Shown one piece after another: positions 14,670 through 43,304 of a stretch of DNA of 43,304 bases (its first letter is position 1; every line of letters begins with the position of its first letter). The position numbers and the translations under genes were made by a program. Location of the stretch: positions 1 to 43,304 of IMG/VR virus record IMGVR_UViG_3300044684_000228, one strand, 5' to 3'. The notes below the pieces were generated by a model. That model had not been told where the DNA came from. It saw only the letters and a list, made by a program, of their open reading frames with translations, and searched no databases. Source of the stretch: a virus.

Positions 14670-15089
14670 TTAGCGGCCCGGGCCGCAGTTGACCCAGACT
14701 CCGTCGGCGTCGACATCGACAATGATGCCGCCGGTGATGCGGGTATTGGTGGCGGAGGTGAGTGCAACCGTCTGGTCGTCGACCAGGTAGCACTGGGTGC
14801 CGACGGCGGCGTAGGTGATGAGGTCCGCGTTCGCGGAGTTGACGAAGAGCGCAACGCCGAAACGGACCTTCGCCGTAATGGCGCCGGCGGCGCCGGCCGA
14901 GTTATCATAGGTCTGCTCGGCGTAGCCATAGGCGCGATCGGTGGTCGACGCGCGGGCGGGGCGGAGGTTGCCGGCATTGTCGATCACGACGCGGGCACCG
15001 GCATAGATGACGACGCCGGCGGCGACCGGGCCGGTGGCATAGTCACCCTTGCGGGTTTGGAGCTTGCGGGCGGCGGCCAGCGCGGTCAT
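14670..15089 (-). CDS. Head decoration/capsid-stabilising protein (DUF2190-like)
   Basis: A 139-aa beta-rich protein between protease/scaffold and capsid. The opening (RKLQTRKGDYATGPVAAG) and the many short Val/Ala-rich strands resemble small head proteins such as DUF2190 or decoration proteins in Mu-like phages. It starts with an ATGA overlap to the protease stop. Role inferred from place and fold type. Confidence 0.65.
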   Translation of the reverse strand: MTALAAARKLQTRKGDYATGPVAAGVVIYAGARVVIDNAGNLRPARASTTDRAYGYAEQTYDNSAGAAGAITAKVRFGVALFVNSANADLITYAAVGTQCYLVDDQTVALTSATNTRITGGIIVDVDADGVWVNCGPGR

Positions 15090-15628
15090 TGGCGACCCTC
15101 CAGACCCTTGGCATAGTCAGCGGGCTTGATGCCCAAGGCCGACGCCGCCTGCCGCTGGACCGTGGTCAGGCCGAGAACCGGATCGCCGGCCGGCGCGCCA
15201 CCCGTCACGACCGAACCGGCGGCGACGATGACCGGCGCGGTGCCGAGATAGGCCTGGAAGGTGGCGAAGTCCTTGCGCGCCCAGGCCAGCATGCTTTCGC
15301 GGCTGGCGGGGACGATCTTGCCGTCCTTGACGGCCTGGTCGACCACGGCGGCGACCTTGTCGCCCTCCAGGGCGCCGAGGCGCGTCTGCATGTCGGCGAA
15401 GACCGAGGCGGGCACGATGACATCGCCCTCGCCGGCGACCTTTTTGGGGTCGGGCTTGAGCGCGGCGCCGGCGGCGGCGATTTGTTCGGCCGTGGCGTCG
15501 GAGGCGACGCCCAGGGCGGCCGAGGCCGCCGACAGGCGCGCGGCCTGGGCGGTCTGGGCAGCGAGGATCTGATCCAGCGTCGCGTCAGCGGGCAGGCCCA
15601 GGCTCACCGCCAAAGCGGAGAGGTTCAT
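15086..15628 (-). CDS. Scaffold protein from an internal start (Mu Z-like)
   Basis: In the same frame as the protease gene, ATG at 15628 is preceded by AAGGAACCCGAA, a good ribosome site with about seven bases of spacing. The product is the last 180 residues, starting MNLSALAVSLGLPADATLDQ. In Mu the scaffold Z is made from an internal start in gene I; this site is the matching signal. Confidence 0.7.
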   Translation of the reverse strand: MNLSALAVSLGLPADATLDQILAAQTAQAARLSAASAALGVASDATAEQIAAAGAALKPDPKKVAGEGDVIVPASVFADMQTRLGALEGDKVAAVVDQAVKDGKIVPASRESMLAWARKDFATFQAYLGTAPVIVAAGSVVTGGAPAGDPVLGLTTVQRQAASALGIKPADYAKGLEGRQ

Positions 15629-16147
15629 TTCGGGTTCCTTGGTGGAGTGGAAGCGCGACGCGGCGACGCGGGTAAGCCCCGCGATCGCCGGGTCGTTGGT
15701 GAGGCCGCCGCCGTAAAGCCCGGTGACCTCGCCGTTCTTCACCCCCATGAGGGGCGAGAAATACTTGTATTGCTTGCCGGTGATCGCCGCCGCCGCCTGC
15801 GGCGTCCAGTCGATGTCGTTGGCATAGACGCCGTCGGCCTCGGCCGAAAGATTGGCGGTCTTGACCCAGCCGGACGCCGGGGCCTGCCCACCCGGGCCGC
15901 CCTTGGTTATGGTGTTCAGCGTCTGGTGGTCGAAATCCAGCGGCATATCTTCGGGCGACCAATAGGCCGTGGCCGCGGCGACCACCTTGGCCGGATCGAC
16001 CCTCAGCGGCGCGCGGCCGTCCTTCAGCTTCACAACGCCGGCGGGCAGGACGCGGATGCGGCGCAGGGGCTGACCGTCGGCGCCGGCCACGGAAATGGCC
16101 GACGCGCTTACGATCACTTCTTCATGGGAGGAATTCCCCTTAGACAC
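15086..16147 (-). CDS. Prohead protease and scaffold, Mu I-like
   Basis: A 353-aa Mu gpI homologue. The N-terminal half (to about 170) is the protease part, with PLDFDHQT (69-76), ASGWVKTANL (91-100) and QYKYFSPLMG (126-135), all conserved in the family. The C-terminal half is Ala-rich and helical, as expected for scaffold. The start appears to be GTG at 16147. An internal ATG at 15628 with its own ribosome site should also give the scaffold alone. It is the first gene after the palindromic late promoter. Confidence 0.9.
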   Translation of the reverse strand: MSKGNSSHEEVIVSASAISVAGADGQPLRRIRVLPAGVVKLKDGRAPLRVDPAKVVAAATAYWSPEDMPLDFDHQTLNTITKGGPGGQAPASGWVKTANLSAEADGVYANDIDWTPQAAAAITGKQYKYFSPLMGVKNGEVTGLYGGGLTNDPAIAGLTRVAASRFHSTKEPEMNLSALAVSLGLPADATLDQILAAQTAQAARLSAASAALGVASDATAEQIAAAGAALKPDPKKVAGEGDVIVPASVFADMQTRLGALEGDKVAAVVDQAVKDGKIVPASRESMLAWARKDFATFQAYLGTAPVIVAAGSVVTGGAPAGDPVLGLTTVQRQAASALGIKPADYAKGLEGRQ

Positions 16148-33430: not shown

Positions 33431-33823
33431 TTAACCTCCTGTTTTTTGAGTGGGGACCGGGCGCGCGACGCCCAGGGTGAGTTTTTCGGACAGGTCGATG
33501 ACGGCGCTGGCCGCCTCGTCGATCTTCGGCAGTTCCTTGAGGGTCGCAGCATCGGCGGCGAGGTTGGCCAGGTACTTGACCAGCTGGCAGATGGCGTCGT
33601 GAGCCATCTCGGCCTCGACCGCGTTGATGCGGTCGGTCGGCAGCGTGGCCATGCCGTCGACGGCGGTCGCGATGGCCAGTTCATCCTTGACCATCGCCGT
33701 ATGGATGATGGCCAGGGCACGGCACCAGGTGCGGACCTGTTCGGCGTCGACGGGCCCGCCGGCGTTCGCGGCCGTGGTCATCCAGCCGCTTATGGTGCTG
33801 AGTGCGGAAGACGCCCGGTTCAT
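33431..33823 (-). CDS. Hypothetical early protein
   Basis: A 130-aa helical protein starting MNRASSALSTISGWMTTAAN with an ATGA overlap to the MuB stop. It has repeated Ala/Leu/Glu helices and a Pro-rich C-terminus. Its TAA stop lies within the AGGAGG ribosome site of the next gene, so the two are closely coupled. Not recognised. Confidence 0.6.
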   Translation of the reverse strand: MNRASSALSTISGWMTTAANAGGPVDAEQVRTWCRALAIIHTAMVKDELAIATAVDGMATLPTDRINAVEAEMAHDAICQLVKYLANLAADAATLKELPKIDEAASAVIDLSEKLTLGVARPVPTQKTGG

Positions 33824-34782
33824 GCCGCCAGCCCCGCGTTCAGGTCGTCGGCCGCGTCCTTCAAATGCAGGATCGACCGCGCCTCGTTGCCAGCTCGCGC
33901 CATCAGAGTGGCCTGTTCCAGCACCTTCGACATTTGGCGGAGCGCGCCGCCGCCGGGCAACAGGGCGATGCCCCTGAGGAAACGGGCCTCGGCATCGTTC
34001 TGAATGCCCCACGCCTCAAGCATGGTTTCGACGTCGCCCTTCATCGGGCCTGTCAGGTCGCCCCGCTTGCCGACCCGGGACGAGCGCTGGGCGAATTGCG
34101 CCGCGCGGTTGCCGTCTATCCGGACGGAAACCTCGCGATTGCCGCAGAACAGCAATCCGCAGCCGGTTTCGTCGTGAATGGACCGAAGCTCCTCAAGGAG
34201 TTTTTCGCTGAGGAATTGGGCTTCGTCGATAATGACCAGCGGCGCGCTGCGGAATTTCAAGACGCGGCGCACGCGGTCTGAAAGGACAGACGCCCTGTGA
34301 CTGGACGCGTTTACGCCCATTTCGACCAGCAGGGCCGGCAGGAAAGAGTGATAGGTCGACCGCGTCGGGGACGACGTGACGCTGAACACGTTGGAATTGG
34401 TTTGGGCGAAAGCCCGGAGACCAAACGTTTTGCCGACGCCGGGATCGCCGATCAGTGTGGCAATGTTGCCGAGCTTGGCATAGGTGGCCATGGCGAAGAT
34501 GTATTTCGCCGTCGCCGTCATCTGGAAGCCCGGCCTGACGTCCGTGTTGCCAAAAAGTTCCTGGGCCTCTTCGGTCCGGAACCATTTCGAAACCTCCAGT
34601 GCGACCGATTGATTGTCGCCTTTGTAGGTGCCTCCCGCGAAGGCCGAAAGCGTCGACTCGCCGAGACCCATATTCCCGGCGATGACCTTCCAGCTTTGAC
34701 CGCTGGTTTCCTTATATTCGACAAGGCGGGACTGAATGGATTTCAGTTCCTCCCTGTCGAGTTTGCCATCGGTGTTAATCAT
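33820..34782 (-). CDS. MuB-like transposition ATPase
   Basis: A 320-aa AAA+ ATPase. An N-terminal helix-turn-helix-like region (about 30-55) precedes Walker A GDPGVGKT (112-119), Walker B LVIIDEAQ (182-189) and a sensor-like CGNRE (about 213-217). MuB coats target DNA, activates the transposase and gives target immunity; the family members differ mainly in the N-terminus. It is encoded just after MuA, separated by 79 bp with a hairpin. Confidence 0.9.
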   Translation of the reverse strand: MINTDGKLDREELKSIQSRLVEYKETSGQSWKVIAGNMGLGESTLSAFAGGTYKGDNQSVALEVSKWFRTEEAQELFGNTDVRPGFQMTATAKYIFAMATYAKLGNIATLIGDPGVGKTFGLRAFAQTNSNVFSVTSSPTRSTYHSFLPALLVEMGVNASSHRASVLSDRVRRVLKFRSAPLVIIDEAQFLSEKLLEELRSIHDETGCGLLFCGNREVSVRIDGNRAAQFAQRSSRVGKRGDLTGPMKGDVETMLEAWGIQNDAEARFLRGIALLPGGGALRQMSKVLEQATLMARAGNEARSILHLKDAADDLNAGLAA

Positions 34783-34861: not shown

Positions 34862-36880
34862 TTATTTTTTCGGCCGTTCTGGCTCTGATTGCGGGGTCAA
34901 CCCACCATCGAAAACTTGGAAACGCGGGCGCCCCGCGTCGGGCGCCATGGCCGCCATGGCCGCGGTGAAGCGGTCGGCATAGGCCACGCGGTCTGTCCTG
35001 GGCGCCGGGGCGGCGGACCCGCGCGTGCGGATCGGCCGGACAACCGTCGGCGTCGGGATTTCGGGAATATCGGGCGTTGCCGCCAGCTGCTGGGCGGCGA
35101 GGTCCGCGGCGCTGATCAGGCTCTGCAGCTGGGCCGCCTTGCGGACGGACTTGCGCAGGTCGCCTTCCATCTTGGCCCGCGTCTTGGCGGCCTCGACGTC
35201 GTAGAAGCCGACCGCCGCCTGGATCGGCGCTTCGCACACGAACTCGCCAGAGGCCTTGTAGATAAAGGCGCTCCCCATCAAATCCTGGGGATCGAAACGG
35301 ACGGTCACCATCTGGCCGGCCAGGTCGAGCATCTCGCGGCCGTAATAGGTGTTGCCGTAGAGGGTGACCGCGCCCGTCCGCTTGTTGGCCCGCACATTCT
35401 CGGCGGCCAGCAACGCAAGCCGCAGCTGCTCCGGCGTTGCCCGGCCGACAGGATGGGCCGCATAGGACTCGGCGAAGGTCTGATCGAAACTGCGCCCGCG
35501 GGCGTTTTCCGTGGTGCGGCCCAGCTGGGCGTTATATTCGGCGATGCCGGCGGCGACGACGGCCTGGAATACGTCGAAGTCGATGGCGCGGGTGCCGTAG
35601 TCCTCGGGCTTGGCGTCGATATGATGGCCGGTATAGGCGCCCTGACAGGCCGGCGACATGCTGACGATCTCTTCGAGGTCGCCAAAGGCCCGCTCGATCG
35701 GCTTGGCCTGGCCGTGGTGGGGCTTTGCCCAGTGCACGCGGATGCCCAGTTGGGTCAGCAAGCCCAGGGGCTCATCGTCGCGGATGGTGAAGCGGAAGCG
35801 CGTCTTCGCGCCGCCCGTCATCCACTTCGAGGCAAAGGCCCGGCCGTTATCCAGAGTGAAGTCCTGGGGGATGCCCCAGTTCTTCAGCAGGTCCGCCGCC
35901 ACGAGGCGCGTCAATACGGCCGACTCGCTCTCACCGGTGCGCCACGCCAGGATCTTATTCGAATACAGATCCTGGATGACGACCGACACGGCGCGGCCGA
36001 CGCGTTCGGGCTGGCCGTTGCGCGCCGGAAAGCGCACGAAGACGTCCCACTTGTGCCCGTCGATATTCACCGCCTGCATCGCCGTCAGGTCGCGGCGCGT
36101 GCGCTTTTGCGGGGGCAACGTCTCGATCACCGCTTCCATGCCCTGGCGCTTCAGGATGATCACATCCTTTGGCACCTCGGCGCGCAGCCGGCGTGTCAAC
36201 GTCTTCGGATGCGGCAGGCTATCGGCGATGCCAAGACGCTTGGCCTCTTTGACTGTCTCGCGATAGGTGCGTTCAAAACCGACCGGCGAGGGCCGCAGAT
36301 AGAAGCTCTTGAAATAGGTCAGCAGGCGCGGGTCGATATCGGCCTTGACACCGCCGCCCTTCCGACGCGGCGCCAGAGCCGGCAGCCGGTTAGCCACGTC
36401 GACCCCTTCGACCAGGGCGAACCAATTCCAGATGGTCGCCTTGCTGATTTGCAGGTCATGGGCGATGCGGATGACCGCTGCGTTCTTCTTCAGGCCGCCC
36501 ATGACGGCCAGCTCGACCGCCTGGATGGCGATCAGGCGGCGCTTGGCCTCGTCCTTCGTCGTCTGGTTCTGCTGATCGAACCAGTCCCAGGTCGCGGGCG
36601 CAGTTTCCGCGCCGTCCTGGTCGTCATTAACGGCACCTTGGGGTACAGTTAGAAGCCCTCGGCGGGCCATTTCGAGGGCTGCCTGGGCGGGCAACAGGCT
36701 GACATGATACTCCAGGCCGCCGCCGCGGCCGGCACGGGGGCGCGCGAGGCGCAGGCCCTCCCGGTCGGTCCGTTCGGCCCAGTTTTGTGCGGCGGCGTAT
36801 TCCACGACCCGATTGCGCTTGCCCCCCACCCCTGGGAGGTCGAGCGCCGCGAAATCGGCGGCGCTATACCACTCTTTCAA
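34862..36880 (-). CDS. MuA-like DDE transposase
   Basis: A 672-aa transposase. The start is TTG at 36880, overlapping the upstream stop as TTGA with GGGAGGG before it; an ATG at 36925 would overlap that gene by 49 nt. The N-terminus has the MuA-type winged helix (LKEWYSAADFAALDLPGVGG) and a second end-binding part around AVIRIAHDLQISKATIWNWF. The DDE catalytic residues are D274 (VNIDGHKW), D344 (TLDNGRAFASKW) and E396 (KPIERAFGDLEE), counting from the TTG. It cuts and joins the phage ends for replicative transposition. The Pro-rich C-terminus probably binds MuB. Confidence 0.94.
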   Translation of the reverse strand: MKEWYSAADFAALDLPGVGGKRNRVVEYAAAQNWAERTDREGLRLARPRAGRGGGLEYHVSLLPAQAALEMARRGLLTVPQGAVNDDQDGAETAPATWDWFDQQNQTTKDEAKRRLIAIQAVELAVMGGLKKNAAVIRIAHDLQISKATIWNWFALVEGVDVANRLPALAPRRKGGGVKADIDPRLLTYFKSFYLRPSPVGFERTYRETVKEAKRLGIADSLPHPKTLTRRLRAEVPKDVIILKRQGMEAVIETLPPQKRTRRDLTAMQAVNIDGHKWDVFVRFPARNGQPERVGRAVSVVIQDLYSNKILAWRTGESESAVLTRLVAADLLKNWGIPQDFTLDNGRAFASKWMTGGAKTRFRFTIRDDEPLGLLTQLGIRVHWAKPHHGQAKPIERAFGDLEEIVSMSPACQGAYTGHHIDAKPEDYGTRAIDFDVFQAVVAAGIAEYNAQLGRTTENARGRSFDQTFAESYAAHPVGRATPEQLRLALLAAENVRANKRTGAVTLYGNTYYGREMLDLAGQMVTVRFDPQDLMGSAFIYKASGEFVCEAPIQAAVGFYDVEAAKTRAKMEGDLRKSVRKAAQLQSLISAADLAAQQLAATPDIPEIPTPTVVRPIRTRGSAAPAPRTDRVAYADRFTAAMAAMAPDAGRPRFQVFDGGLTPQSEPERPKK

Positions 36881-37221
36881 GCTGCCCTCCCTGCTCTCAG
36901 AATTCGGATGGTGCCGAGCTGCCAAAAGTCGGCTTGGCTCTCGGCCACGGCCTTCGCGACGGCGTATTCGATTGCGAAGATGTCGACGGACTTCAGCCGG
37001 AGGATCACGTCCTCGATCAGCAAGCCTTTACCTTCGGCCCTGCGTATGGTTTCGCGAACGAAGACCACTGCCCGCATCAATTCCAGTTCCCCGGTACCAG
37101 GCAGAGCGTCGTAGAGCCGGTAATTCAGATCGGCGAGGTGACCTTCCGGATCGAGAATGATCTCCAGCTGGCAATGGATGGGCCGTTGAACATGGGCATG
37201 GCGAATGCTGTTGCCGCTCAT
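36877..37221 (-). CDS. Hypothetical early protein
   Basis: A 114-aa protein starting MSGNSIRHAHVQRPIHCQLE with an ATGA overlap to the gene before it. A mixed alpha/beta pattern is predicted, with long helices around LELMRAVVFVRETIRRAEGK and VDIFAIEYAVAKAVAES. It directly precedes, and is coupled to, the transposase, so it could regulate or help transposition. Not recognised. Confidence 0.6.
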   Translation of the reverse strand: MSGNSIRHAHVQRPIHCQLEIILDPEGHLADLNYRLYDALPGTGELELMRAVVFVRETIRRAEGKGLLIEDVILRLKSVDIFAIEYAVAKAVAESQADFWQLGTIRILRAGRAA

Positions 37222-38689: not shown

Positions 38690-39570
38690 TCCGCGGCCTC
38701 CAACTTGTCGGCGGCGAAGATGATCGACACGCTATCCGGCACCATCTTCGCCAGTTCGCGCAGTGCGATGATGCGCTCCTTGCGACCCATGCGTCCGTAG
38801 GTGTCCACGAAGGTCGACAGCCGCTTCGTTTCGGGCGCCAGTACCGGGATCTTCTTAACGATGGCGATGGCGTCGGCCAGCGACTTGCCATCCTCCATCA
38901 GCTTGATGAGATCGCCCTGGTCGGACCAGTGAAAGCCGGCCAGTTTGCGCAAGGCGGCGGCATTGTCCGCGATCTTGAGCTTCCGAACCCGTTCCTGAAG
39001 CGAGGGCGGAATGCCGTTCAGCGCCAGAGTGCGGCTAACCGAGGACCGATGGAGGCCTAGCTTTACCGCCACCGTCTCTTGCAGTCCGAGCGATTTGTGC
39101 ACGATGCACAAATCGTCATCTAACTGCTTTTTCTTGGCTTTTTCCGACCGGACGTCGGCATTTAATGCCCGCCCGTCCTGCGCGCCTTCGATGCCCAGTC
39201 GCGCTTTTTCGGTTTCGATCAGCTTAGTGACGAATCGCGCTTGGTCGAGAGGCGACAAATCAAGCCGCATGAGGTTTTCGGCCAGCTCGCGCGACATACG
39301 GTCCAACGCGTTCGCTGACCCGAGGAGTGCATCGACCTCGTCCCACTCGTTAATCCGATAGGCGGCCATCCGGTGTCCGCCGAACACGAGCCGAAAGCCA
39401 GATTTTCCGGGCATTTGGCAGACGTCGATTGGAACGAGCGGCCCATGTTCACGCATGTGGGCCGCGAGCGCGGCGGCGTAGTCCATGTCTATCGGACGAA
39501 GCCTTTGGGTGTCGTCGACCTCAGCCACTTTCACGCGGAGCAGGGTCTTGGGGGCAGGAAGCGCGGACAT
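38686..39570 (-). CDS. ParB-like DNA-binding protein
   Basis: A 294-aa ParB/Spo0J family protein (numbered from ATG 39570; GTG at 39582 is possible). The N-terminal ParB domain has FGGHRMAAYR (63-72) in place of the usual GERR motif, then ENLMRLDLSPLDQARF (98-113) and a helix-turn-helix ETVAVKLGLHRSSVSRTL (165-182). The family binds parS-like sites and, in ParB proper, uses CTP. No ParA is present, so it is more likely a regulator or DNA organiser than a partition protein. Confidence 0.8.
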   Translation of the reverse strand: MSALPAPKTLLRVKVAEVDDTQRLRPIDMDYAAALAAHMREHGPLVPIDVCQMPGKSGFRLVFGGHRMAAYRINEWDEVDALLGSANALDRMSRELAENLMRLDLSPLDQARFVTKLIETEKARLGIEGAQDGRALNADVRSEKAKKKQLDDDLCIVHKSLGLQETVAVKLGLHRSSVSRTLALNGIPPSLQERVRKLKIADNAAALRKLAGFHWSDQGDLIKLMEDGKSLADAIAIVKKIPVLAPETKRLSTFVDTYGRMGRKERIIALRELAKMVPDSVSIIFAADKLEAAE

Positions 39571-39572
39571 GT

Positions 39573-39899
39573 CTATTCGCACGCCTCAGATAGACGTTGC
39601 AGACGTGTATTCCGGCCCTTACGATATTCACGAACGTGAATAATGACGCGGCGACCTTTTTCGTCGTACCGGCTGGGCCAAATCTTATGGAGAGGAGTGT
39701 TCAATTGATCGGCGATGATCCGATCCGCTGTCGGAACAGCGACCTTTAGCGACTTGCGGCAAGCGCCTTCAGACAAGCCGTTCCTGCGGGCCAGCTCTGA
39801 AAGGGTTACGCCAGTCATGCGGACAGCTGCCTTGATCTGCTCGGCATGCCAATCCTTCTGTTTCGAACGCCTCGGACTTCCCATGATCGTAAATCTCAT
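39573..39899 (-). CDS. ner: Ner-like DNA-binding protein
   Basis: A 108-aa Ner/Nlp family protein. It has KDWHAEQIKAAVRMTGVTLS (14-33), the recognition helix region ELARRNGLSEGACRKSL, and the family end IWPSRY (near 75-80). The ATG at 39899 is chosen because the early promoter lies directly upstream and AAGG precedes it; an upstream in-frame start would lie inside the operator. In Mu, Ner shuts down the early and repressor promoters during lytic growth. A C-terminal basic extension of some 25 residues is encoded by DNA that contains a second operator. Confidence 0.85.
   Translation of the reverse strand: MRFTIMGSPRRSKQKDWHAEQIKAAVRMTGVTLSELARRNGLSEGACRKSLKVAVPTADRIIADQLNTPLHKIWPSRYDEKGRRVIIHVREYRKGRNTRLQRLSEACE
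39626..39641. promoter_or_regulatory. Operator inside ner: ATTCACGAACGTGAAT
   Basis: A perfect 7-bp inverted repeat, ATTCACG-AA-CGTGAAT, in the 3' part of ner. The same core (CACGAACGTGAA) is in the early promoter at 39923-39934. It is probably a repressor or Ner site. Confidence 0.7.
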
Positions 39900-39916
39900 T
39901 TCACCTTCGAGAAAAG

Positions 39917-39944
39917 AGATTACACGAACGTGAAAATTGATCAA
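39917..39944 (-). promoter_or_regulatory. Early promoter with operator in its spacer
   Basis: On the minus strand -35 TTGATC (39944-39939), a 16-nt spacer and -10 TAATCT (39922-39917). The operator TTACACG-AA-CGTGAAA (39920-39935) fills the spacer. It would drive ner and the early operon and be blocked when repressor binds. Confidence 0.7.
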
Positions 39945-39950
39945 GCGACC

Positions 39951-39966
39951 ATCACACGAGCATGGA
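39951..39966. promoter_or_regulatory. Possible weak operator over the repressor start
   Basis: ATCACACGAGCATGGA matches ATTACACGAACGTGAA at 12 of 16 positions and lies 32 bp (about three helical turns) from it. It covers the repressor start codon and could allow autoregulation. Confidence 0.4.
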
Positions 39967-40618
39967 AGAAAATATTTTCGACCCGGCCGCGTTTGCGACC
40001 CGTCTTCGAGACCTAATATATCCCGAAAAACATTCAGCTTTTGCCGTTCGCGCCGGGATCAGTATGTCTGTGCTCAGCAAATATCTCGCCGCTCCCGAGG
40101 GTCTCAACCCCAGCATCGACGTAGTCCTAAAGATATGTGATGCCACGGACGTGCAATTGGATTGGCTCGTTCGTGGAAAGGGTGATTCGCCGTCAAAGGA
40201 AGATGGCGTCGTCAAAGTGCCGATCTATGACGTGAAACTCGCGGCCGGCGCCGGATCGTTCGTCGACAGAGAGCGCCGATTGGGCGATATGCCGATTGAT
40301 AAAGCTCTTTTGGCGACGCTCGGCCTGCGCAATGCCGACGGTCTTGGCATCCTCACCGCCCAGGGCGACTCGATGGTTCCCCTGATCTCCGACAAGGCCC
40401 GTGTCCTCGTCAACTTCAACGACCGGCGCCTTGCCGAAGGTGTCTTCGCCTTCCGCGTCGGCGACGAACTGAGAGTGAAACGCCTCCGGCCGGTAGGGCT
40501 CGGAGGCGTCGAAGCTATATCTGAGAACCCGATTTACCCACCCGACCGGTTGTCCGGTGATGTAATGGAGCACTTCGAGATCGTCGGCCGCGCCATCTGG
40601 GCCGGCACTATCCTTTAA
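39962..40618 (+). CDS. Phage repressor with S24/LexA-type peptidase domain
   Basis: A 218-aa repressor. The N-terminal helix-turn-helix is about 25-43 (AFAVRAGISMSVLSKYLAA). The C-terminal S24 peptidase domain has a cleavage-type LAAGAGSF (93-100), catalytic Ser in GDSMVP (S137) and Lys in RVKRL (K173). In this family RecA-stimulated self-cleavage inactivates the repressor after DNA damage; Mu itself has a different repressor, without this domain. It is divergent from ner, with shared operators. Its 3' end overlaps by 4 nt the convergent LexA-boxed zinc-ribbon gene. Confidence 0.88.
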   Translation: MEENIFDPAAFATRLRDLIYPEKHSAFAVRAGISMSVLSKYLAAPEGLNPSIDVVLKICDATDVQLDWLVRGKGDSPSKEDGVVKVPIYDVKLAAGAGSFVDRERRLGDMPIDKALLATLGLRNADGLGILTAQGDSMVPLISDKARVLVNFNDRRLAEGVFAFRVGDELRVKRLRPVGLGGVEAISENPIYPPDRLSGDVMEHFEIVGRAIWAGTIL

Positions 40619-40893
40619 TCCTTGCAGATCATGAAGCGGAGGTCGCCGCCGCAGCCGTGACGTGGGCATTTCTCAGTCCTGTTCAACGTATCGACCGTTG
40701 CGAAAGGGCTGACGCCGGCGAGCAGCGCATCCGTAGCCGACATCGTGCGCTCAGTGTTGCAATCATCGCAGTAGCTCTTGATCAGCACGTCGCTGGAAAG
40801 CCGCTTCAGCGGTATATAGTGGCTTGCCTCCCCCTTATTCGGCTCCGCTTCGGCTTGCGGTTCTGCAATCAATTTCAATGTGGCTTTGGTCAT
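40615..40893 (-). CDS. Zinc-ribbon protein under a LexA box, convergent on the repressor
   Basis: A 92-aa protein starting MTKATLKLIAEPQAEAEPNK. The start at 40893 is chosen for the AAGGAGG six bases upstream. CDDC (42-45) pairs with C76 and C81 (CPRHGC) as a zinc ribbon. A perfect GTTC-N7-GTTC box 27 bp upstream overlaps its promoter, so it should be SOS-induced. Its stop overlaps that of the repressor by 4 bp. The place and control suggest an antirepressor or other inducing factor, but the family is not recognised and the role is inferred. Confidence 0.72.
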   Translation of the reverse strand: MTKATLKLIAEPQAEAEPNKGEASHYIPLKRLSSDVLIKSYCDDCNTERTMSATDALLAGVSPFATVDTLNRTEKCPRHGCGGDLRFMICKD

Positions 40894-40919
40894 TTTAACC
40901 TCCTTGGCTGACCCTCCAT

Positions 40920-40955
40920 GTTCTATATTTGTTCTCATTTTGGACATGGAGTCAA
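40920..40955 (-). promoter_or_regulatory. LexA-controlled promoter
   Basis: GTTC-TATATTT-GTTC (40920-40934) is the exact alphaproteobacterial LexA pattern. On the minus strand a TTGACT -35-like box lies at 40955-40950 and the LexA box covers the -10 region, so LexA would block initiation. Confidence 0.78.
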
Positions 40956-40991
40956 CGCGGCTTTGGCAGCATGTCGCCTGATGCTGACACT

Positions 40992-41037
40992 TTCAGGTTA
41001 ACCCCGGTTAACGTATACTGCCTTCCAGAACGGGGGA
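40992..41037 (+). promoter_or_regulatory. Promoter and ribosome site of the lipoprotein gene
   Basis: TATACT (41014-41019) is a good -10 box; the -35 is weak (TTCAGG at 40992-40997, 16 nt upstream). Around it lie two GTTAAC hexamers. GGGGGA (41032-41037) is the ribosome site. A prophage-expressed (lysogenic) gene is suggested. Confidence 0.5.
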
Positions 41038-41044
41038 TTTCCTT

Positions 41045-41587
41045 ATGAAACTGGCCTTTGCGTCTGCGGTTGCCTGCTTGATCGGTCTGGCCGCATGTTC
41101 CCAGCCCGCATCGCAGTCAGCTGCGGTCGAAAGCATCACTTCGAGCGCCAGTTCATTCAGGGTTGGCGACACCATGACGAACGGCGACCTGCAGCTGACG
41201 GTCACGAAGGTTGCGATCGCAAATTGGGTAGGCGAACGCTTCGCCCGTGAAAAGGCAGCCGACGGAGGCGAGCTTGTCGTCGTGGAGACAGCTATCAAAA
41301 ACGCCGGCCAAAAGCCGATTTCGGCTTTTGAGCTTCCGAAGGTGAAACTCGTCGATCCTACGGGAACGGAATATTCGGAAGACTATGGAAAAACGGCCGC
41401 GTTCCAGATGGCCCATCCTGAACTCGACCGTAAAATGGCGAGCGACCTTAATCCGGATATCACTGTCACGGATGTGGCTGTCTTCGAAGTTTCAAAGGCG
41501 AAATTCAGTTACGATTCCTGGTTTATAACCCCGGGTGGTGGCACGTTGATAGCTTTTAAGCCTTCCGATGGTTACACGGTCAAATAG
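41045..41587 (+). CDS. DUF4352-like lipoprotein (candidate lysogenic-conversion gene)
   Basis: A 180-aa lipoprotein with a signal peptide MKLAFASAVACLIGLAAC and lipobox LAAC (C18). The mature part is beta-rich in an immunoglobulin-like arrangement: RVGDTMTNGDLQLTVTKV (39-56), ELVVVETAIKNAGQKPISAF (75-94) and LVDPTGTEY, the DUF4352 pattern. It has its own promoter and lies outside the lytic operons. Such prophage lipoproteins often act at the cell surface, for example in superinfection exclusion; this is not shown here. Confidence 0.75.
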   Translation: MKLAFASAVACLIGLAACSQPASQSAAVESITSSASSFRVGDTMTNGDLQLTVTKVAIANWVGERFAREKAADGGELVVVETAIKNAGQKPISAFELPKVKLVDPTGTEYSEDYGKTAAFQMAHPELDRKMASDLNPDITVTDVAVFEVSKAKFSYDSWFITPGGGTLIAFKPSDGYTVK

Positions 41588-41589
41588 CG

Positions 41590-42192
41590 TTAGCCGACCT
41601 GGTACAGATGCTCTTCGCCCTTGCCGACGCGCACAACGCTGTGGGCCAAGGCGCCGGCCGGAAGATGTTTCAACAACTGCCCTTCATTGCCAGGCTGAAG
41701 GAACAGCCAGTCGGCCCATAGCTCCGGCCTCAGGATGACGATCTGCCGGTCATGATAGGGCGAGACGTCCGGGCCCGGCGATGTCGTCAGCATGGCGAAG
41801 GCGTTTTCTTCCGGCCAGTACCTGCCGGCGATCCCCATTATCGGCGCGCCCTGGAGGACGAAGCGGTGCTTGGTCTTTGGCGACTTTTCCCCAGTGAACT
41901 CGAAGAAGGCCGACGCCGGCACGATGCACCGCGGGCTGTCGGCAAAGTGCCGGCCCTCCGAGCGGAAATTGAACAGTGGCCCTTTGCCCGGTTGGGGCTT
42001 GCCGAAAGTGGCGCGCACGATCCGGGCGCCATTGCCTTCAGGGACGGCTACGGCGCCGCCCTGGCCGATACGGATGTCATCGGCGAACGGCATGGGGTCT
42101 TCGCCCTCGTAGGCCGGCAACCCGATGTCCAGCTGCTCCATGAGGGCTGTGTATTGCGAATAGGCGATATGCGACTCGTAGTCGTTGCACAT
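41590..42192 (-). CDS. SOS response-associated peptidase (SRAP/YedK family)
   Basis: A 200-aa SRAP protein. The start at 42192 puts Cys2 directly after Met, as the enzyme needs: Cys2 forms a thiazolidine with abasic sites and protects DNA. MCNDYES, the CIVPASAFFEF block (about 89-99, with the conserved Glu) and PYHDRQIVIL (about 147-156, with the conserved His) are all present. A perfect AGGAGG precedes the ATG and a LexA box lies 57-71 bp upstream, so SOS control fits the family. It could protect phage DNA from abasic damage or uracil excision. Confidence 0.9.
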   Translation of the reverse strand: MCNDYESHIAYSQYTALMEQLDIGLPAYEGEDPMPFADDIRIGQGGAVAVPEGNGARIVRATFGKPQPGKGPLFNFRSEGRHFADSPRCIVPASAFFEFTGEKSPKTKHRFVLQGAPIMGIAGRYWPEENAFAMLTTSPGPDVSPYHDRQIVILRPELWADWLFLQPGNEGQLLKHLPAGALAHSVVRVGKGEEHLYQVG

Positions 42193-42204
42193 GGGCGCCT
42201 CCTG

Positions 42205-42218
42205 TTCAGGGCCCTGAA
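42205..42218. promoter_or_regulatory. Palindrome TTCAGGGCCCTGAA upstream of the SRAP gene
   Basis: A perfect 14-bp palindrome in the SRAP leader. With its left flank it reads CCTGTTCAGGG, which also occurs on the minus strand of both late palindromes. The half-site order differs, so binding of Mor here is only a possibility. Confidence 0.4.
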
Positions 42219-42248
42219 GGTACTGCCTTGACTCTTGATCGGCAATTG

Positions 42249-42263
42249 GAACAAAGTGGGAAC
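42249..42263 (-). promoter_or_regulatory. LexA box between SRAP and the zinc-ribbon gene
   Basis: GAAC-AAAGTGG-GAAC, read on the minus strand as GTTC-CCACTTT-GTTC, is an exact GTTC-N7-GTTC box. It lies between divergent genes, 57 bp from the SRAP start and 17 bp from the plus-strand gene start, and may control both. Confidence 0.78.
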
Positions 42264-42280
42264 ATAATGGAGCGTGTCCC

Positions 42281-42775
42281 ATGTTGTTGCGTCCCGGTCT
42301 GTTGGTGGATCTCGAAGGCGATTGGCGCATTTACGAAGCCCAGCGCGTGCCGGGCCGAAAGGACGTCATCCGCGTTGGACAGCATCTCTATAATGACCGC
42401 TTCGAGCCGGTCAGTCCCGGTGCGCCGACGGTCGTCGACGCGATCGACGGCAACAGCGGCTGGAAGCAGCACAAGAAGGGCCGCGACGCCAAGCTTAAGC
42501 AGTGGGAAGACCGCATGGCCCGCGGCCGGGCCGAGGAAGCGCGGGCCAAGCTGCTGGCCAGCGCCGAGGGATGGAAGCACGACCGGCCGCTCAGCGCCTT
42601 TCCGCGTGAGGGGTTTCTCAAGATCACCTGCATCCGCTGCGGCCGGGTCCGCTTCGACCAGGTCGGCCGCGTTTGCGGCGAGGCGCGGCTCGGCAAGCTG
42701 ACCGTTGCGCAGCTGCAGGCCGTGGAGTACTGCTACGGCTGCCACGACGCGGTCAGGATCGACTGGGAAAACTGA
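42281..42775 (+). CDS. Zinc-ribbon protein of unknown function
   Basis: A 164-aa protein. The start at 42281 has GGAG eight bases upstream. The N-terminal half (LVDLEGDWRIYEAQRVPGRK) looks beta-rich; residues 65-100 are a basic helix; the C-terminus has CIRC (about 117-120) and CYGC (about 151-154), a split zinc ribbon. It is divergent from SRAP across a LexA box and is the last gene before the phage end. Not recognised; a role in DNA repair or damage response is possible from its place. Confidence 0.65.
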   Translation: MLLRPGLLVDLEGDWRIYEAQRVPGRKDVIRVGQHLYNDRFEPVSPGAPTVVDAIDGNSGWKQHKKGRDAKLKQWEDRMARGRAEEARAKLLASAEGWKHDRPLSAFPREGFLKITCIRCGRVRFDQVGRVCGEARLGKLTVAQLQAVEYCYGCHDAVRIDWEN

Positions 42776-43154: not shown

Positions 43155-43234
43155 AGGCCCGTCCCACGAAATCCCGGTTCGTCCCTCAAAATCCCACCCC
43201 ATCTGGGTACTCTAATCTCTTCTGTCCCATGACA
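43155..43234. repeat. Phage attL: terminal transposase sites
   Basis: Read inward on the minus strand: TGTCAT, GGGACA, AAG-N-GATTAGAGT. The first site (43209-43230) matches the left-end sites. Two further GTCCC cores (minus GGGACG) lie at 43180-43185 and 43160-43165. Unlike the other end there is no tandem 22-bp site, which agrees with the spaced L1-L2-L3 layout of Mu attL. Confidence 0.75.
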
Positions 43235-43304
43235 GCCGTGGCGCGCTGGCCGTGGCTGTTCGCCGTCAATATCCCGCTGGGCCTCGCGGTCCTGCTGTGC
43301 GGCG
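43235..43304 (+). pseudogene. Host gene fragment, DHA2-type MFS transporter
   Basis: The frame GCC GTG GCG CGC TGG encodes AVARWPWLFAVNIPLGLAVL, typical of the W-x-W-x-F-x-x-N-x-P-x-G motif around transmembrane helix 6 in drug-proton antiporters (DHA2 family). The reading is open to the window edge. The gene appears interrupted by the prophage, but its other part is not in the left flank. Confidence 0.7.

Follow-up and report, generated by a model that had tools for sequence, protein, structure and literature searches.

A LexA-boxed zinc-ribbon gene beside the repressor of a Mu-like phage belongs to an undescribed SOS gene family found mostly outside phages

Small proteins under LexA control act as antirepressors in several phages: Tum of 186, AntC of N15, and GfoA and GftA of the Gifsy phages, whose repressors are not cleaved (PMC3121763). 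Other small LexA-controlled proteins are partners of Y-family polymerases, including UmuD, YolD/YqjX of Bacillus, and stand-alone ImuB-C (PMC6511836, PMC3765255). Zinc is not mentioned in the main text of PMC6511836, which deals with these partners. Aravind et al. (2013) described Zn-ribbon-like domains in SRAP-Ku neighbourhoods, and the SRAP proteins of temperate phages (Bacillus SPBc2 and Burkholderia prophages) were proposed to serve as a damage sensor and lysis switch (PMC3765255). We found no literature on a LexA-controlled small zinc-ribbon protein.

We found a short gene with a LexA box, encoding a predicted C4 zinc ribbon, next to the repressor gene of a Mu-like phage. The DNA analysed (the window) is 43,304 nucleotides long and comprises positions 1 to 43,304 of IMG/VR record IMGVR_UViG_3300044684_000228. 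Like Tum, AntC and GfoA/GftA, the ribbon is a small temperate-phage protein under a LexA box and is predicted to be made upon DNA damage. Unlike them, it has homologues mostly outside phages, its putative repressor target appears to be fully self-cleavable, and there is no sequence match between it and these proteins. The apparent retention of the self-cleavage site also separates the window repressor from those of the Gifsy phages. Like UmuD, YolD and ImuB-C, the ribbon family includes short SOS genes in Y-family polymerase operons, with copies on mobile elements too. In contrast to UmuD and YolD, its members are predicted C4 zinc ribbons rather than SH3-like or S24 folds, and the phage copy has no polymerase. 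The ribbons of Aravind et al. (PMC3765255) are also Zn-chelating ribbon-like domains near SRAP in damage-response neighbourhoods; theirs, however, are in SRAP-Ku neighbourhoods, and we set them beside this family by description. Like SPBc2 and the Burkholderia prophages, the window phage is temperate and has SRAP, but here the SRAP gene diverges from one ribbon gene across a LexA box and another ribbon gene lies at the repressor.

The assignment to Mu-like phages is based on genes for a MuA-like transposase (34862-36925, minus strand), a MuB-like AAA protein (33820-34782, minus), a Ner-like HTH_35 regulator (39573-39944, minus; the first early-operon gene), a ParB-like protein and an S24 repressor, and on terminal repeats that resemble transposase sites. 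The right end, TGTAGCGGGACAAAAGCTTTTAGAG (78-102, plus), resembles the left end, TGTCATGGGACAGAAGAGATTAGAG (43210-43234, minus), and repeats are present at each end. We did not find a 5-bp target duplication at the ends (the flanks read TCGGG and GCCGT). The flanks are possibly from different insertions, so the missing duplication is no argument against the assignment. The host flanks (1-77 and 43235-43304) share no such duplication and are each only ~70 bp, consistent with a phage that transposes actively and whose flanks are mixed. Among sequenced genomes, those of Asticcacaulis, the probable host genus, encoded the closest transposases.

The ribbon gene (40615-40893, minus) encodes 92 amino acids with cysteines at C42-x2-C45 and C76-x4-C81. 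A strong Shine-Dalgarno sequence, AAGGAGG (40899-40905, minus), precedes it. A sequence-only reading had reported an exact LexA box over the promoter of this gene and a 4-bp overlap of its stop codon with that of the repressor, and we confirmed both. The box, GTTC-N7-GTTC at 40920-40934 (GTTCTATATTTGTTC), matches the LexA consensus published for Caulobacter (PMC12700426). Read on the strand of the gene as GAAC-N7-GAAC (GAACAAATATAGAAC), it lies 26 bp 5' of the start codon. A perfect -35 hexamer, TTGACT (40955-40950, minus), precedes it by 15 bp, so that the box covers the -10 region. The ribbon stop (40617-40615) and the repressor stop (40616-40618) share 40615-40618. The exact motif occurs three times in the window (1.37 expected; 16% of shuffled sequences reach three). 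It is thus common enough by chance that a single box proves little, and the case for LexA control is its conservation. A third exact match, at 15623-15637, lies within a late-region reading frame (15086-16147, minus) and was set aside as probably due to chance.

Searches with the 92-aa sequence alone against viral contigs, phages and species genomes found no direct relatives, so neighbourhood comparison and profiles were needed. There was no match at E ≤ 1 in Pfam, PHROGs or NCBIfam, and no similarity to a known antirepressor family in any of the three. Beside one of the two closest transposases, at locus L026, we found a 46% identical ribbon with its own box, convergent on a 64% identical repressor. 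The ribbon at the equivalent position in L027, a prophage of A. biprosthecium C19, resembles a second ribbon of the window (ORF 42281, below) more. Of 149 Caulobacteraceae genomes, 22 contained matches (37 in all) to a profile built from L026, L027-type and further ribbon members. Within Asticcacaulis, to which G002 (A. biprosthecium C19) belongs, 20 of 25 genomes had members, mostly at loci with no repressor, and a class-wide search of 385 genomes gave few matches beyond this genus. The profile similarity, and the alignment of C-x2-C ... C-x4-C in one domain, place the window gene in a family of SOS C4-ribbon proteins. This family is undescribed, and no curated family that we searched covers it. 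An AF2 model made from four sequences (mean pLDDT 78.8; ~90 for residues 30-90) predicts a small ribbon with a helical insert. Its comparison with the PDB gave nothing significant (best Foldseek E 0.16; best Z 3.7) and no useful fold match from which to take a function.

Conservation of the promoter made LexA control convincing. The 90 bp upstream of the start contained a box in 27 of 28 family genes, compared with 0.4% of random 90-bp segments from the same loci. In the remaining gene (L077) the box is slightly farther upstream of the chosen start. An overlapping set of 36 loci (116 kb) contained 41 boxes and one copy of a reversed control motif. TTGAC precedes the box by 13-16 bp in 26 of the 28 genes. 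The spacing is 14 bp in most chromosomal copies and 15-16 bp in the copies of Mu-like phages and those paired with SRAP. Judged from sequence, this is real LexA-type promoter architecture. The earlier proposal that LexA controls the window gene thus has strong comparative support; the gene would be induced by the SOS response in the host, and its product presumably binds zinc.

More distant members of the family are linked to translesion polymerases. These ribbons lie directly behind a Y-family polymerase gene (Pfam IMS), and the gene ends overlap or are a few bases apart. Such pairs were found in alphaproteobacterial genomes (L060, L063, L214, L215 and L220). All of these except L063 have a LexA box where the polymerase gene begins; L063 showed no exact box. 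Alphaproteobacterial plasmids (L225-L227 and L229-L231) of Yoonia, Maritalea, Shinella, Mesorhizobium and Agrobacterium also carry the operon, and on most of them the polymerase bears the annotation 'type VI secretion protein ImpB'. SRAP is near the operon in two of these, Maritalea and Mesorhizobium. The polymerase-linked ribbons are 82-84 aa long and end in a conserved GFVGG or similar, a tail that the phage copies do not have. A profile of the phage ribbons matched them with an hhalign probability of 95.7 (E 9e-9), and the polymerase-linked profile recovered the ribbon family with no decoys among the top 60. Each profile thus supports common ancestry of the phage ribbons and those linked to polymerases. 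The polymerase operon is limited to the distant branch, and the window phage gene stands alone.

Other relatives are chromosomal or paired with SRAP. Chromosomal family loci with no repressor are L044, L045, L077, L078, L080-L082, L084-L089, L091 and L093. In the window, the left arm (from the repressor to the left end) contains the ribbon gene, an accessory DUF4352 lipoprotein gene (41045-41587, plus), found beside the ribbon in L027 and L083 as well, a gene of the SRAP (HMCES/YedK) family (41590-42192, minus; Pfam SRAP E 2.5e-13), and ORF 42281 (42281-42775, plus). By alignment and tree, the 164-aa product of ORF 42281 has an N-terminal domain followed by the same C4 ribbon, and it has homologues in L042 and L076. 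The SRAP gene and ORF 42281 diverge (intergenic region 42192-42281) across a second LexA box, GAACAAAGTGGGAAC (42249-42263, plus), with a -35 sequence, TTGACT, at 42228-42233. We considered that these two genes might be host flank and rejected this: the left end and its repeats lie at 43234, and both genes are thus inside the phage. Ribbons that neighbour SRAP are ORF 42281 and those of L042, L076 and L095; for L042, SRAP is suggested by the layout only. Boxed genes resembling ORF 42281 and divergent from a SRAP-like frame were seen in Asticcacaulis genomes at L076 and probably at L042.

The contexts of the relatives make a damage-tolerance family the simplest reading. On this reading, to which we give about an even chance, the window gene is a phage-borne, SOS-timed member of such a family, carried as accessory cargo. 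LexA would repress the ribbon gene in the lysogen, and DNA damage would set off the SOS response and production of the protein. The ribbon would then act in damage tolerance as a small partner or regulator that works at sites of DNA damage or on a translesion polymerase, much as UmuD or YolD do with their polymerases. The phage would supply it as cargo during SOS, while self-cleavage of the S24 repressor would induce the phage. The conserved box and fixed -35 sequence, the homology to polymerase-linked ribbons, the pairing with SRAP, the loci with no repressor and the intact cleavage residues of the repressor all favour this reading. The repressor (39962-40618, plus; HTH and Peptidase_S24 by domain match) has S137 and K173, as originally noted, and by alignment these and the A95-G96 cleavage dipeptide are invariant across eight repressors. 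All residues required for RecA-stimulated S24 self-cleavage are present and the repressor is apparently self-cleaving, so the phage has a direct route to SOS induction, for which an antirepressor is not needed.

Some results speak against this reading, and the first of them is an arrangement that generic cargo would not require. In all six Asticcacaulis-type Mu-like phages (the window, L026, L027, L083, L090 and L094) the ribbon gene points at the repressor, and in four of them it is the immediate neighbour, with the stops separated by anything from a 4-bp overlap to a 19-bp gap. In L090 and L094 the two genes are ~500 bp or more apart; we found no transposase beside L094, which may therefore be a remnant phage. 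In addition to their lack of the GFVGG tail, the phage copies form their own branch (support 0.935), sister to the copies in P2-like prophages (0.87), in a tree made from a short domain alignment (~65 columns) whose split between phage and chromosomal copies is a guide only. The phage branch may thus have a phage-specific role.

One such role is the one that the sequence-only reading proposed: an SOS-induced antirepressor that binds the repressor and lifts repression, providing a second route to induction. We consider this unlikely, although parts of the proposal stood. The convergence on the repressor is real and was kept in the six Mu-like phages, and Tum, AntC and GfoA/GftA are precedents (PMC3121763). 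In the P2-like prophages (L043 and L079) the sister ribbon has two overlapping LexA boxes and is ~2 kb downstream of a repressor of the S24 type. Read by eye, this repressor has LVRLY where others have VKRL. The catalytic Lys is apparently replaced by Arg, so this repressor is probably not self-cleaving and a 186-like circuit would be needed there. (L043 is at G002:C2:1554270-1558420, and the prophage also holds a lipoprotein and SNase pair, as L027 does.) Against an antirepressor, most homologues, including the chromosomal and plasmid copies, are away from repressors, although they have not lost their LexA boxes, and the window repressor is apparently able to cleave itself. Among Mu-like prophages of other Caulobacteraceae, 11 related ones lacked this ribbon, and none was seen in the examined flanks of the 80 viral contigs that best match the window repressor, where SOS boxes were scattered. 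There was no PHROG match, and divergence of the ribbon was weakly correlated with that of the repressor S24 domain (rho 0.47, P 0.08; 15 pairs), a comparison in which six phages are too few to decide. A damage-tolerance role is more probable than a dedicated switch for waking the phage. A combination of the two, in which the ribbons are a mobile, new class of small partners of Y-family polymerases on plasmids and chromosomes, and one branch has become an SOS switch of Mu-like and P2-like phages acting on S24-type repressors, seems to us quite doubtful.

LexA boxes are frequent in the same arm of related phages. In 17 of 28 repressor-bearing Mu-like loci an exact box lay on the left-end side of the repressor, no more than 1.7 kb away. 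Outside the six phages the boxed products were other C4 ribbons, which may be distinct from the main family, YozE_SAM-like proteins, an 88-aa protein (L127) and two with no assignment. LexA-timed left-arm genes are thus common in the Mu-like group, and their products and orientations vary. These other C4 ribbons are in Caulobacteraceae Mu-like prophages (L122:5806-6177, plus; L124:5013-5327, plus; L125:7200-7568, minus) and point away from the repressor. The YozE_SAM-like genes are at L010:1154, L014:2365, L017:1938, L029:2321 and L030:4065, the last in a Mu-like relative in a Sphingomonas genome.

The promoter might matter more than the protein. An SOS transcript could run antisense through the repressor gene and continue into ner and the early operon, lowering repressor levels and bypassing the operator. 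The ribbon, ner, parB-like, A and B genes are all on the minus strand and we found no terminator-like site on either strand at 39500-41000, so SOS transcription could enter the early operon. None was found on the ribbon's strand in L026, L027 or L083 either, and a stop gap of at most 19 bp, as in four of the six phages, leaves no room for an intrinsic terminator. However, Rho would be expected to halt an untranslated antisense RNA, the two genes are well separated in L090 and L094, the boxed left-arm genes of other Mu-like relatives face away from the repressor, and the encoded ribbon is clearly conserved. We regard this explanation as rather improbable. Equally hard to favour is a pure hitch-hiker, a captured host SOS gene that helps the lysogen under DNA damage and has no part in phage biology: the other accessory left-arm genes (SRAP and the DUF4352 lipoprotein; SNase in L027 and L043) and the varied products under the 17 left-end-side boxes are as it would predict, but the fixed orientation beside the repressor in six phages and the phage-specific clade are not.

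Our results describe an unannotated SOS zinc-ribbon family with ties to SRAP and translesion polymerases. Chromosomes, plasmids and temperate phages of two kinds all carry it. Should its phage branch act on the repressor, phages would have made switches out of host damage-response genes. Otherwise, they would be carrying damage-tolerance factors whose expression coincides with prophage induction.
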